The notes beneath the pieces are model-generated. The model searched no databases. It saw only the letters and a program-made list of their open reading frames with translations, and had not been told where the DNA came from. Source: a virus. Taken from it: DNA of 34,366 nt. The DNA is taken from the IMG/VR virus record IMGVR_UViG_3300037041_000289, positions 1 to 34,366 of that record; one strand, written 5' to 3'. The translations under genes were made by a program, and so were the position numbers. Of the stretch, positions 7,397 through 34,366 are shown one piece after another (position 1 is the stretch's first letter; every line of letters begins with the position of its first letter).

Positions 7397-8074
7397 TCAA
7401 GGTGCTGCCACTGCCAGCCCAAATCCAAGCAACATCCCCACACCAATCTTGAATCCTGTGGTCTCATACCATCTTGGAGGCTTCCTTACTACAAAATTAC
7501 TCATGCCAGTGACTACCACATTGGGATTGTCCACCCTGATGCGCACCACCGGATCACTCTTTTTGATTAACCTATTAAACAGCCCATTTCTGAGCGTATC
7601 TCCAAAGGCCACAGTGTAAGTGGTGGGAATGATTAAAGAATCAATCTGGAGGCTTCCTAAGCGATTAATCTCACCACCAATTGTGAGGTGCTTATCCTTT
7701 TTATAGAATGGTATTGGCAGCTTAAGGTATGGAAAGGAGTCAATGTAAACCGGATCGGCAAGCTTGATCTCTGTCTTTATAACTGTTTTAGTCTTATACT
7801 TCACCACCTCTGTTGGCTTGCGCATTTCCATCATCTCAATTTCCTCAAGCAGTGCCTCCTCCAGTTCAGCATGCTGCACAATTCGGATGCCCTGGCTGAT
7901 GAGATTGGATGAGTCCTCTGCCATCCTGCGCACAAGTTTATCCTTATACTCAATCATGGTTTTAAGATCGGCCTCTGCTGCCTTCTGATTCTGGCAGGAG
8001 CGAAATGTGAGCAGCAATAAGATCAGAATTGTGACACCATAAATTGCATGATGCTTAAGAGTGGTCTCGGACAT
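7397..8074 (-). CDS. Membrane protein with coiled coil; spanin-like candidate
   Basis: 225 residues. An N-terminal membrane helix (about 12-25, GVTILILLLLTF) is followed by a Cys and a long charged helix (about 30-90), a beta-rich middle (residues 95-190), and a short hydrophobic C-terminus (GFKIGVGMLLGFGLAVAAP). Proteins of this build occur near lysis genes of Bacteroidota phages. A protein anchored at both ends with a periplasmic coiled coil could disrupt the outer membrane like a spanin; that is inference. It lies three genes after the probable holin and overlaps the 61-residue gene by 20 bases. Confidence 0.6.
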   Translation of the reverse strand: MSETTLKHHAIYGVTILILLLLTFRSCQNQKAAEADLKTMIEYKDKLVRRMAEDSSNLISQGIRIVQHAELEEALLEEIEMMEMRKPTEVVKYKTKTVIKTEIKLADPVYIDSFPYLKLPIPFYKKDKHLTIGGEINRLGSLQIDSLIIPTTYTVAFGDTLRNGLFNRLIKKSDPVVRIRVDNPNVVVTGMSNFVVRKPPRWYETTGFKIGVGMLLGFGLAVAAP

Positions 8075-8240
8075 GGCTTAAAATTTCATTAAATTTAGCC
8101 AAATAACTTGATTTATCCTTGAGCTGATCCATTAAGATCTGGCTCACCACATTAAGCGGCATGTCACGCTCAATCATATACACCACCAATACCTTAACCA
8201 ATCTCTCATCGCATTCAATATCTGTTGCAGGCAGGCTCAT
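8055..8240 (-). CDS. Hypothetical 61-residue protein
   Basis: 61 residues, helical (RLVKVLVVYMIERDMPLNVV, then ILMDQLKDKSSYLAKF), one Cys, not recognised. A TATCTTTG promoter element ends exactly four bases before its ATG, so it is probably read from its own leaderless transcript, which would also carry the spanin-like gene that overlaps its end by 20 bases. Confidence 0.6.
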   Translation of the reverse strand: MSLPATDIECDERLVKVLVVYMIERDMPLNVVSQILMDQLKDKSSYLAKFNEILSHVRDHS

Positions 8241-8244
8241 GCAA

Positions 8245-8252
8245 CAAAGATA
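8245..8252 (-). promoter_or_regulatory. TATCTTTG promoter, four bases before ATG
   Basis: Minus-strand TATCTTTG followed by TTGC and then the ATG at 8240. It matches the Bacteroidota -7 element TAnnTTTG. With a start site a few bases downstream, the mRNA would begin at or next to the ATG, so the transcript would be leaderless. No clear -33 TTTG is seen at the ideal spacing. Confidence 0.6.
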
Positions 8253-8253
8253 T

Positions 8254-8820
8254 TTAAATTTGTCTTGTGGCTTTCTTCACCAACAATTTTACCACCTCAT
8301 CAAGCCGATCCACTGATGAGGCAATCATGATCATGATGCCACTTTTCTCCTGCTCAGTGGCCTCTGGATGGTCAAGCAGCATTCTCACCAATCCACCGAT
8401 TGAAGTAAGCGGCTGCCTGAGCTCATGGCTTAACATAAATCTGAACTCCTCCAGAAGCACCTTCTGTCTCTCATGCTCATGGGCAGAGATTGATGTCACA
8501 TCCACAAGTTGAATCCCAATAAAATGCAGGCTGTCCATGATGGAATAAACATTCCACATATTGTATCTTTCTGATCCAATCTTTTGCTTGGTTTTGGCAT
8601 ACACCCTGACAGCATCAGGAGTATTTTTTTTTGCCTTCTTGATGGCCCTTAGCAGCTCATCCTTATCACTATCATGTGCCGCAATGTCCATGATATTGGA
8701 TGGCTTGATGTGGCTGCTATATTCTTTGAATAAATCATTAGAGGCCACTATGCCACCATCCTGATCGGATATGACATAGAATAGATCAATGGATGAGTCC
8801 AGGATATGCAGGCTTGCCAT
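8254..8820 (-). CDS. PAS domain plus histidine-kinase dimerisation domain, no ATPase
   Basis: 188 residues. Residues about 10-108 read as a PAS sensor domain (FYVISDQDGGIVASNDLF near the start, FIGIQLVDVTS at its end). Residues about 115-185 read as a HisKA/DHp domain with the H-box FMLSHELRQPLTSI; the phospho-acceptor would be His132, followed by Glu-Leu-Arg-Gln-Pro. The protein stops there: no N, G1 or G2 boxes, so no catalytic ATP-binding domain. It could be phosphorylated by a host kinase and act as a phosphate sink or dominant-negative partner in host two-component signalling. It lies in the lysis region and has its own TATCTTTG promoter. I see no frameshift that would explain the missing domain. 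Confidence 0.8.
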   Translation of the reverse strand: MASLHILDSSIDLFYVISDQDGGIVASNDLFKEYSSHIKPSNIMDIAAHDSDKDELLRAIKKAKKNTPDAVRVYAKTKQKIGSERYNMWNVYSIMDSLHFIGIQLVDVTSISAHEHERQKVLLEEFRFMLSHELRQPLTSIGGLVRMLLDHPEATEQEKSGIMIMIASSVDRLDEVVKLLVKKATRQI

Positions 8821-8824
8821 ATCA

Positions 8825-8832
8825 CAAAGATA
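8825..8832 (-). promoter_or_regulatory. TATCTTTG promoter, four bases before ATG
   Basis: Minus-strand TATCTTTG, then TGAT, then the ATG at 8820 of the PAS-HisKA gene. The spacing is the same as at 8245, 17864 and 34036. It implies separate, probably leaderless, expression of the signalling protein rather than simple read-through from the lysis genes. Confidence 0.6.
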
Positions 8833-8850: not shown

Positions 8851-9255
8851 TTATGACAATTCTTGTTTGAGCTCATTAAACAATTGAGCCCATGATGGAG
8901 CACAAGTGATGGCATACTTAGCAGCAACAGCCAACATGAATGTGAAGGTAAGCGAATTGCAAAGTAAATCAATATTCATAGGCTGTTCAATTTCTGGCTG
9001 ATTTCTTACTTGGTGAATCTTGATCGTGTGGTACGTTGATTCACTTAATAAAGATACATCAACAGGCTGAATTGAGTCAGCAGGCAGATCAATTATTTTT
9101 TTGATTGGCAGCACATCAGCCACATCAATGGGCAAAGTATCGGCTGCAATGGTGTCCTGATGCATAACTGTTGGCACTACCTCAACAATTGGCTTCACTG
9201 GATGGTTAAGGCAGTGGCCCGGATTGTTGCATTGTATGGTGTCAGTTGGTATCAT
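8851..9255 (-). CDS. Hypothetical protein of the lysis region
   Basis: 134 residues from the ATG at 9255, which overlaps the end of the probable holin gene by 14 bases; the open frame continues upstream to 9327 but that part lies inside the holin gene. It has a Cys pair near the start (CNNPGHC), a long Pro/Asp/Ile-rich extended middle, and a hydrophobic stretch near the C-terminus (TFTFMLAVAAKYAI). The extended middle plus a membrane-like segment would suit a cell-envelope protein. I cannot assign it to a family. Confidence 0.5.
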   Translation of the reverse strand: MIPTDTIQCNNPGHCLNHPVKPIVEVVPTVMHQDTIAADTLPIDVADVLPIKKIIDLPADSIQPVDVSLLSESTYHTIKIHQVRNQPEIEQPMNIDLLCNSLTFTFMLAVAAKYAITCAPSWAQLFNELKQELS

Positions 9256-9445
9256 TGCTGTTGGTTTTAGGGATGTAGCCTGCTGCCACCATTGCTGCGA
9301 CAATAGCGGCCAAAGTCTCGACCTCAATCTTTTTTAAGATCAGCATAAAGACAGACACCAGGATCACAAGGGAGCCAATGGTCGGCTTCCAATGTTTCAA
9401 AATGATGTTGCAGATCTTACGTGCTTTGGTAGGCTTCCGACTCAT
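9242..9445 (-). CDS. Probable holin
   Basis: 67 residues: a basic N-terminus (SRKPTKARK), a first membrane helix (about 22-38, TIGSLVILVSVFMLIL), and a second hydrophobic segment (about 43-58, ETLAAIVAAMVAAGYI), ending in a short polar tail. Size, two membrane segments and position 50 bases after the lysozyme gene fit a small phage holin. The lysozyme has no export signal of its own, so a holin is needed. A TAAATTG element lies four bases before the ATG, a near-match to the leaderless promoter pattern. No specific holin family is recognised. Confidence 0.65.
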   Translation of the reverse strand: MSRKPTKARKICNIILKHWKPTIGSLVILVSVFMLILKKIEVETLAAIVAAMVAAGYIPKTNSNDTN

Positions 9446-9495: not shown

Positions 9496-9951
9496 TTATT
9501 TACAAAGTGAGAAATACAGATTGGCTTCCTCTCGCCTTCGAGTCACCAGACCGGACAGCACCTTGCCACCGCCTCGCACCCACTTTTGGAACTCATCCAC
9601 AATGGATGGATCAGCAGCATTCACTTTGGCCTTCTTTAAAAGTGTGGACTTAATAAATGCACCTGTGCCCACATTGTAAGTGAATGATACAAGTGCATCG
9701 AATTGACATTGGTTAAGGTTAGGTAAATGCCGATTGACAGCAGCCTCGAAAGATTCCAGACTGGCAAGCAGTAATTGAGTGGCCTCTTTTTCGCTGCTTA
9801 ATTTTTCGCCTAAAATTACCTTGCGGCCATCAGTATATCTGGTATTGCCATACCCGATGGTGGGCACCCCTGCCGGGCACAGGTAGCTGCTCAATCTCAA
9901 GCCCTCATGCTTCTTAATTATTGCCAGACCTTGTGCCGATGTCGAGCGCAT
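9496..9951 (-). CDS. Endolysin, GH24 lysozyme (T4-like fold)
   Basis: 151 residues, the usual size for this family. The catalytic triad is in place: Glu16 (in KKHEGLRL), Cys25 and Thr31 (GVPTIGYGNT). The E-8-C-5-T spacing equals that of T4 lysozyme with Cys in place of Asp, a known variant. A QCQFDALVSFTYNVGTGAF helix and TRRREEANLY close the fold. It cleaves the glycan strands of peptidoglycan. There is no signal or signal-anchor segment, so release depends on the holin encoded next. It follows the small fibre-tip gene with a two-base gap, so lysis is transcribed with the late genes. Confidence 0.92.
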   Translation of the reverse strand: MRSTSAQGLAIIKKHEGLRLSSYLCPAGVPTIGYGNTRYTDGRKVILGEKLSSEKEATQLLLASLESFEAAVNRHLPNLNQCQFDALVSFTYNVGTGAFIKSTLLKKAKVNAADPSIVDEFQKWVRGGGKVLSGLVTRRREEANLYFSLCK

Positions 9952-17894: not shown

Positions 17895-18806
17895 TTAGTC
17901 AATAAATCCCTCAGCTCTTGCCCTTGCCTTAACCGATTCGGGCACCTTATTGTCTGGCACTGGCACAAGATAGTGCCTGCAATTCCACCCCCCTACTAAG
18001 GTAAAAATTGATTTGCTATCTGTGCCATCTATGCGCCCGGCCCATGTGCCATTCCTGATGTCATTTATTCCACCGCTATTTTCCCCATCACCCCATGCTT
18101 CAATCTCTTGACGATGATATATCTTGCCTTCCCTGTGCTCACAGAAGGGCCTTGTTGTAGGTATCTCACCTCCAAGATATTCAAACCACTCAAGGCCAAG
18201 CTCATCATTGATGGCTGCTGAGTAGCTGCGATCTGCCACCGCCTGAGCAGTGATGGCTGTGGTCTTTATATTGGCAAGCAGCCTGCCATCATTAGTCTCG
18301 GTTCCTGTCACCAATCCCTCCAATGCATTGACTGCCTCCCTCAGTGGAGCCCTTGCTGCAATGTTGGTGGTGAGCTGCTCTAAAAATGGCTGAGTGAATC
18401 TCTGATCAAGCCCTGCCCCGAAAAAGGTATTGATGGCATTCTGCTTTGATATCTGGATCAGTTGCTTCTGTACTGCTGTTGGCTCAAAGGATGCCTCAAA
18501 CTTTTGCGCAATCTCAGTGGATAGCTGCACACCTGCATCAATGGAATCAAGAAAGTCCTTAACAGCAGCCCGATAATCACTGCCTGCCAGTACCTTCTTG
18601 AGCTCATCTGCTATCTGTCCAATCCTTGCAATGTTGCCCTCAGTCTGCTCAATGTTGCCGGATGCACTTACATCCATCTTATCAAGCAGAGGCCGGATCT
18701 TTTTCCATGCCTCTGCCTGAGTCTTTATGGCAGCAGTCTCAAGCCTCTTTGGTACTTCCTCAAAGAGTCTTATTTTTTCTTTTACCAGTTGATCAAATGA
18801 TGCCAT
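17895..18806 (-). CDS. MuF-like head morphogenesis protein
   Basis: 303 residues. The N-terminal half is helical; the C-terminal part carries the MuF-type pattern: NDELGLEWFEYLGGEIPTTR, then RPFCEHREGKIYH, then TLVGGWNCRHYLVPV, with the conserved Cys, His and Arg. These proteins lie on the inside of the portal-proximal head and often enter the cell with DNA. The start overlaps the portal stop by 14 bases, which supports a coupled portal-MuF pair, the usual order. Confidence 0.8.
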   Translation of the reverse strand: MASFDQLVKEKIRLFEEVPKRLETAAIKTQAEAWKKIRPLLDKMDVSASGNIEQTEGNIARIGQIADELKKVLAGSDYRAAVKDFLDSIDAGVQLSTEIAQKFEASFEPTAVQKQLIQISKQNAINTFFGAGLDQRFTQPFLEQLTTNIAARAPLREAVNALEGLVTGTETNDGRLLANIKTTAITAQAVADRSYSAAINDELGLEWFEYLGGEIPTTRPFCEHREGKIYHRQEIEAWGDGENSGGINDIRNGTWAGRIDGTDSKSIFTLVGGWNCRHYLVPVPDNKVPESVKARARAEGFID

Positions 18807-20775: not shown

Positions 20776-21372
20776 TTATCGCTGTATTAAAGAGAGGCCT
20801 CTGCCCTCTGATGTGTTCAATGTTATTGTGTTGTACTTATAGTGATTGACATACTCAATCAGCTTCTTAACATCAGGAATGTGGATGGTGTCATGGTAGG
20901 CTATCACACCGCCCGGCTTGATCACTCTCTCAATCTCTTTAAACTCTGGCAGGATATTATCCCATGAATGATCCCCATCCACAAAGATAAAATCAAAGTG
21001 ATGCTCTGGCATATTGGCAAGCACCTTGATCGACTCACCTAAGATAAAGTTCCATCCCTTGCCGGCCTTGTTAAAGTCAAGCTTACGATAATCATTGATG
21101 TCAATGCCAGTGTACTTGCCGCCAATCGGTAGGGCCTCAATCATCTTAACCGATGTCTCACCTTCGAATACTCCAATCTCAAGGATGTTCTTGTAGCCGT
21201 TCATCTTAATCAATGAGCCAATGAATTGGCACACATCAATCTCACTGTTCCAATCGTGTCTGGCTTCCTCTTTAAAGGTGGCAGTGGTGACAATCTTTTT
21301 TTCAGCCTTCGGTTTAGTGGCCTCTGACTTCTTTGGCCGCCCTGCTTTCTTTTTAGCGTTTTGGGTCTGCAT
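20776..21372 (-). CDS. SAM-dependent methyltransferase with N-terminal AT-hook-like tail
   Basis: 198 residues. Residues 8-26 are Lys-rich with an AT-hook-like AGRPKKSE core. The rest is a class I methyltransferase: motif I ILEIGVFEGETS (63-74), acidic loop YTGIDIN (Asp91), motif IV FDFIFVDGDHSW (Asp132, His135), and IKPGGVIAYHD. It resembles the Methyltransf_24 group that methylates small molecules, sugars or rhamnosyl hydroxyls. It lies immediately after a glycosyltransferase, with the genes overlapping by 20 bases, so the two probably act on the same glycan. DNA methylation is less likely since no DPPY-like motif is seen. Confidence 0.8.
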   Translation of the reverse strand: MQTQNAKKKAGRPKKSEATKPKAEKKIVTTATFKEEARHDWNSEIDVCQFIGSLIKMNGYKNILEIGVFEGETSVKMIEALPIGGKYTGIDINDYRKLDFNKAGKGWNFILGESIKVLANMPEHHFDFIFVDGDHSWDNILPEFKEIERVIKPGGVIAYHDTIHIPDVKKLIEYVNHYKYNTITLNTSEGRGLSLIQR

Positions 21373-34035: not shown

Positions 34036-34043
34036 CAAAGATA
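34036..34043 (-). promoter_or_regulatory. TATCTTTG promoter, four bases before ATG
   Basis: Minus-strand TATCTTTG (34043-34036), then TAAC and the ATG at 34031, the same geometry as at 8245, 8825 and 17864. It gives the small DNA-binding protein a separate transcript that is probably leaderless. Confidence 0.6.
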
Positions 34044-34287: not shown

Positions 34288-34307
34288 AAAATTTATAGCG
34301 GCTATAA
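34288..34307 (-). promoter_or_regulatory. TAAATTTT promoter element overlapped by a palindrome
   Basis: TAAATTTT (34295-34288) stands four bases before the ATG at 34283, as in the other leaderless promoters but with T in place of the final G. TTATAGC-G-GCTATAA (34293-34307) is a perfect inverted repeat with a one-base centre that overlaps the TA of the -7 element. Such a palindrome over a promoter is a natural repressor site. Its right end enters the terminal repeat, so it is complete in this window but continuous with the origin region on the circle. Confidence 0.55.
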
Positions 34308-34366
34308 GATAGTTATGCGCAATTTGATTTTTTTCATTATCTCTCATGTTTTCAATCTTTTAACTG
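34305..34366. repeat. Terminal direct repeat, right copy
   Basis: Identical to positions 1-62. Together they show that the sequence closes on itself and that the region 34284-34304 is continuous with 1-371. Confidence 0.9.

Follow-up and report, generated by a model that had tools for sequence, protein, structure and literature searches.

A PAS-DHp protein without a kinase catalytic domain is conserved among the lysis genes of a phage lineage

Introduction

What use could a phage have for a DHp domain that lacks its own catalytic domain? This testable question is raised by a 188-residue protein encoded in the window, by which we mean the whole 34,366-nt stretch of viral DNA analysed here (IMG/VR record IMGVR_UViG_3300037041_000289). 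An initial annotation, made from the sequence alone, described the protein as a PAS-like domain followed by an intact H-box, ending right after the dimerisation helices, with its own promoter in the lysis region. It regarded phage-encoded histidine-kinase fragments as rare, and proposed that the phage may intercept host two-component signalling or couple it to lysis timing. We refer to the protein as PAS-DHp.

Results

The window genome and its probable host

The window record looks like a closed, complete phage genome of about 34.3 kb, because an exact 62-bp direct repeat is found at both of its ends (1-62 and 34305-34366). The genome encodes a terminase, a portal, a tail tape measure protein, a lysozyme and a VapE/primase-like protein. 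The primase has matches in Cellulophaga, Nonlabens and Flavobacterium phages of 35-38 kb (33-35% identity), and the terminase shows 31% identity to Flavobacterium phage 11b. Judging from these distant matches and from the TAnnTTTG promoter-like boxes described below, the host of the phage is probably a member of the Bacteroidota. Elsewhere in the genome, a short protein with DNA methyltransferase PHROG matches is encoded at 20776-21372, between the portal and other structural genes, and several relatives have it too.

A predicted PAS fold is joined to a DHp hairpin

The HisKA profile (PF00512) matched residues 129-177 of PAS-DHp with E=8.4e-8 and 32.6 bits, above the Pfam cut-off of 26.9, which places the H-box SHELRQP and its His132 within a DHp domain, as the initial annotation had read them. 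Hpt was not among the Pfam matches listed for the protein at E<=1; HisKA was found instead. The NCBIfam models of complete PhoR/PnpS kinases aligned to residues 16-181, that is to the PAS and DHp parts only, and scored far under their full-length cut-offs. The best solved relative by sequence was 3a0r, "Sensor protein", which we take to be ThkA of Thermotoga. The protein has no transmembrane segment.

The PAS domain was recognised by its predicted fold, since the Pfam PAS profiles did not match the window protein and matched few relatives weakly (PAS_9 in 5/53, PAS_3 in 1/53), and the TIGR00229 PAS profile reached E=0.033, below its cut-off. AlphaFold gave a poor model from a 12-sequence alignment (pLDDT 57) and was rerun with 53 homologues, yielding a mean pLDDT of 76.5. 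In this model, residues 13-105 adopt a PAS topology (pLDDT about 70-94), which superposes on the ARNT PAS-B domain with a Z of 14.8 and 1.9 Å over 95 residues. Two long helices, 113-149 and 156-187, were predicted with moderate confidence (pLDDT about 58-78) in this monomer model, giving the helical hairpin of a single chain. The top Foldseek matches were LOV-histidine kinases; their whole-chain TM-scores were low (about 0.4) and the rmsd large, probably owing to a different angle between the domains.

Table 1 Features of the PAS-DHp locus in the window
Feature	Position	Strand	Evidence
PAS-DHp CDS, stand-alone, 188 aa, ATG start, TAA stop	8254..8820	-	HisKA match passes Pfam cut-off; common end in 184 distinct full-length homologues
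PAS domain, residues 13-106, predicted fold	8503..8784	-	AlphaFold topology; superposition on ARNT PAS-B
Helical hairpin of DHp (HisKA), residues 113-188, stopping where linker to catalytic domain would begin	8257..8484	-	HisKA in 53/53 members; predicted helices
Codon of phosphoacceptor His132; H-box SHELRQP, with Glu133 and Gln136 adjacent	8425..8427	-	Conserved in homologues
TATCTTTG, Bacteroidota-type -7 box, 4 nt upstream of PAS-DHp ATG	8825..8832	-	TAnnTTTG motif
Second TATCTTTG box, 4 nt before ATG of 61-aa gene	8245..8252	-	Sequence motif
Endolysin (phage lysozyme), upstream in same cassette	9496..9951	-	Phage_lysozyme match in Pfam, 2.6e-39; close to PAS-DHp in all 130 loci with flanks
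67-aa holin candidate, one strong transmembrane segment	9242..9445	-	124/130 loci; peak hydrophobicity 2.11; candidate holin by its position
ORF between holin candidate and PAS-DHp	8851..9327	-	77/130 loci
61-aa protein directly downstream of PAS-DHp, possible partner	8055..8240	-	126/130 loci; no family match
225-aa protein (g7397), hydrophobic N- and C-terminal segments	7397..8074	-	130/130 loci; spanin-like by position only; no family match

The phage encodes neither a catalytic domain nor a receiver

In the six frames of the complete window genome, neither the catalytic domain (HATPase_c) nor the receiver of response regulators (Response_reg) was detected at E<=1, while all 14 control genomes were positive. 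Both were likewise absent at E<=0.1 from 34 related records, mostly of 32-40 kb. A G1-box-like pattern had a single match in all six frames, at 18723, in a frame broken by stops, and the check for an ATPase domain in a neighbouring frame, recommended at the outset, found none. Thus, HATPase_c with its N, G1 and G2 boxes is missing both in cis, where the protein ends after the DHp, and elsewhere in the phage. Since the catalytic domain was searched for and is absent, PAS-DHp belongs to the HisKA domain family and has a predicted PAS fold, but is not a complete histidine kinase. Nor is a complete two-component system present, as no cognate receiver was found in the window genome or in the 34 relatives. 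With neither a catalytic domain nor a receiver of phage origin, the DHp can undergo phosphate chemistry only with host proteins, and any phosphate must come from the host.

Compared with the known kinase HK853, the protein presumably ends where the second DHp helix passes into the linker to the catalytic domain. This placing agrees with the end of the homologues, which in all 184 have their stop 54-58 residues after the His (56 in the window protein); the anatomy noted initially (PAS and DHp with an intact H-box, a missing catalytic domain and a place in the lysis region) is a conserved trait of the family. Phosphotransferases of the Spo0B/ChpT kind consist of a DHp followed by a degenerate catalytic-like domain, and PAS-DHp, ending 56 residues after its His, is not one of them.

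The homologues are under purifying selection

When viral contigs were scanned, 324, 167 and 344 relatives came up, and the supposed rarity of phage histidine-kinase fragments is wrong for this lineage, given the 324 from one scan. The 361 loci fetched yielded 184 distinct full-length proteins with 47-100% identity, and HisKA was matched at E<=1 in all 53 dereplicated members. His132, Glu133 (H+1), Arg135 and Pro137 are each present in 184/184, whereas H+4 (Gln136 in the window protein) is Gln in 182 and His in two, and never Thr or Asn. The median pairwise dN/dS is 0.08 (0.064 in the DHp), and PAS-DHp is under purifying selection. Entropy is lowest around the His (mean 0.22 bits). The loop of the hairpin (2.51) and the N-terminal half of its second helix (1.97) are variable, but conservation returns in the final eight residues (0.72), showing that the C-terminal end is not ragged.

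Two scans of GTDB genomes revealed no close bacterial relative that would point to a host kinase of origin or target. There was no homologue among the cultured phages of the collection searched. Plasmid matches were distant sensor-kinase-like proteins. From the matches labelled as Listeria phage, we examined one, OR847096. It is an unverified contig from wastewater, its response-regulator/kinase pair is complete and bacterial, and we rejected it as a phage homologue. This record (OR847096.1, "Listeria phage LM 4-11-1") carries the bacterial response-regulator/kinase operon along with a helicase-like gene and is probably a mislabelled bacterial contig.

PAS-DHp is a core gene within the lysis cassette

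Neighbourhoods were counted in the 130 loci with enough flank (Table 1). The endolysin and g7397 are near PAS-DHp in every one of them, in agreement with the lysis-region location proposed initially. To avoid circularity, the core status of the gene was evaluated in loci picked through a capsid-like gene that is unrelated to it and lies at a distance of about 7 kb. PAS-DHp was present in 58/58 capsid-selected loci that reach its place, and 22 further contigs end too early. No locus with at least 8.5 kb downstream was without it, and in the seven loci that have the endolysin but no PAS-DHp, the contigs stop before the expected place. Because every capsid-selected locus that is long enough has it, PAS-DHp is a core gene of the phage lineage and not a scattered accessory. 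As a separate observation, the ORFs 8851-9327 and 9242-9445, both between the endolysin and PAS-DHp, overlap by 86 nt in different frames; such overlaps are shown by spanin pairs.

The promoter box claimed for the gene, TATCTTTG, does lie 4 nt before its ATG, but a TAnnTTTG box 4-5 nt before the start is kept in only 66 of the 148 distinct upstream regions, and other subclades have no box there. An own promoter for PAS-DHp is thus plausible in a part of the family. Within the window, TAnnTTTG boxes stand exactly 4 nt before an ATG at 34043, 33290, 17871, 8832 and 8252 (minus strand), and seven boxes occur at 3-5 nt spacing, where simulation gave 1.1 on average and never more than 5 in 200 runs. 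This motif pattern suggests near-leaderless transcripts for several genes of the window.

Discussion

We propose that PAS-DHp is the stub of a sensor kinase in the cytosol, made up of a PAS sensor and a DHp phosphoacceptor, and that it belongs to the core of its lineage and acts in trans on host two-component signalling, namely on histidine kinases and response regulators; to this proposal, taken as a whole, we give about an even chance. The DHp would form homodimers or pair with a histidine kinase of the host, and a host catalytic domain would phosphorylate His132 in trans, with the PAS domain tuning this phosphorylation. Late in infection, the protein may then draw phosphate from host response regulators, or redirect it to them, for the purpose of lysis timing or of silencing an envelope-stress or defence response. 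The interception of host signalling put forward in the initial annotation stands as the best-supported inference on function, given that the phage has no catalytic domain or receiver and that the His and the kinase-specific Glu are invariant. A coupling to lysis timing may be read from one thing, the conserved position within the lysis cassette.

The residues next to the phosphoacceptor bear on the direction of the chemistry. In four HisKA kinases, CrdS and HK853 among them, the kinase reaction depends on Glu at H+1 but the phosphatase reaction does not; phosphatase needs Thr or Asn at H+4 in the HisKA kinases studied, and CrdS N375Q has no measurable phosphatase while about 60% of its kinase activity is left (PMC3510030). 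Because in the phage family Glu(H+1) is invariant and H+4 is Gln, not Thr/Asn, acceptance of phosphate is favoured over phosphatase activity, and the invariant Glu is consistent with a His that a catalytic domain phosphorylates in trans. Since Glu at H+1 is common among HisKA proteins generally, its conservation may be partly inherited or structural. These residues also weigh on an alternative that we consider unlikely, in which the DHp dephosphorylates a host response regulator and so switches the host response off. For EnvZ, a DHp without its catalytic domain is said (in work by Zhu et al. from 2000) to be capable of phosphatase activity, and an intact H-box and dimer surface would suffice for it. 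A phosphatase, however, would have no need of the invariant Glu, and the Gln found at H+4 in 182/184 homologues (His in two), in place of the Thr/Asn of the studied kinases, is the very residue with which CrdS N375Q shows no measurable phosphatase.

Binding alone might also suffice to disturb the host, if PAS-DHp entered mixed dimers and thereby blocked the host histidine kinase in them, phosphorylation of its own His being unimportant. RetS-GacS and ChrS-HrrS are known heterodimers (PMC12189002, PMC9491836), and the phage protein PIT4 interacts with host kinase domains (PMC10714779); we nevertheless hold this explanation to be doubtful, as homologues of 47-100% identity share His132, Glu133 and most of the H-box without exception, and pure binding does not call for this. 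The place of the gene, between the endolysin and holin candidate on one side and g7397 on the other (130/130 loci), with the conserved 61-aa protein directly following (126/130), could instead point to a sensor for lysis timing, in which the PAS domain reads the redox or energy state and the phospho-state of the DHp controls its binding to one of the neighbouring lysis proteins, with the result that host signalling gates lysis. The argument is from position, however, and an operon place can mirror late expression only; we regard this reading as distinctly improbable. It is improbable as well that PAS-DHp is an obligatory part of the lysis cassette in a whole lineage of environmental phages, with host kinases phosphorylating it, the PAS domain reading the cell state and the phospho-state gating lysis or redirecting the host envelope response. 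We know of no two-component input described so far that is wired into phage lysis. Finally, the absence of the catalytic domain would be expected of a non-functional remnant of a captured host kinase, to which we give next to no credence: the dN/dS of 0.08, the constant length and end and the universal presence refute a decaying remnant.

Returning to the proposed phosphoacceptor acting in trans, we know of no report in the open-licence literature searched that describes a phage core gene built in this way. The conserved kinase-less state and the constant place among the lysis genes are what is surprising here; the function is what we infer. If PAS-DHp takes phosphate from host kinases, the signalling state of the host would feed directly into the late programme of the phage, and bacterial phosphorelays could be rerouted with a natural tool that evolution has already tested.

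Among known systems, PAS-containing HisKA sensor kinases have the same order of PAS then DHp, the H-box HELRxPLT and the phosphoacceptor His. Those of the PhoR/PnpS type, 3a0r and the LOV-kinases (4gcz, 8a52) are the best NCBIfam, PDB-sequence and Foldseek matches of PAS-DHp, respectively. In contrast to these kinases, the phage-encoded protein of 188 aa has no catalytic ATP-binding domain, ends at the hinge, lacks a transmembrane segment and carries Gln for Thr/Asn at H+4. In Corynebacterium glutamicum, CA-frameshifted ChrS forms heterodimers with HrrS, in which HrrS phosphorylates, and heme tolerance is raised (PMC9491836). ChrS is likewise a kinase without a working catalytic domain that takes effect via a partner kinase, but it is a laboratory-evolved bacterial mutant and not a natural phage family. 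RetS of Pseudomonas aeruginosa pairs with GacS in a heterodimer, inhibiting GacS and siphoning off its phosphate (PMC12189002), and is thus also a DHp protein acting on another kinase by heterodimer formation and phosphate uptake, but it is a hybrid kinase and belongs to the host bacterium. Host histidine kinases are also the target of PIT4 from Pseudomonas phage LSL4, as we propose for PAS-DHp, but this 131-aa protein, according to its authors, lacks conserved domains and has no homologue in related phages (PMC10714779), and it is not a PAS-DHp protein. The Rap-phi/Phr-phi pair of Bacillus phage phi3T, a Rap-Phr quorum-sensing system predicted to act on host signalling (PMC8027211), is a phage-encoded host-signalling module too, but no PAS or HisKA is reported for it. 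In the literature that we found, phage interference with host two-component systems is the work of accessory genes, whereas here a core phosphoacceptor module is located between lysis genes.
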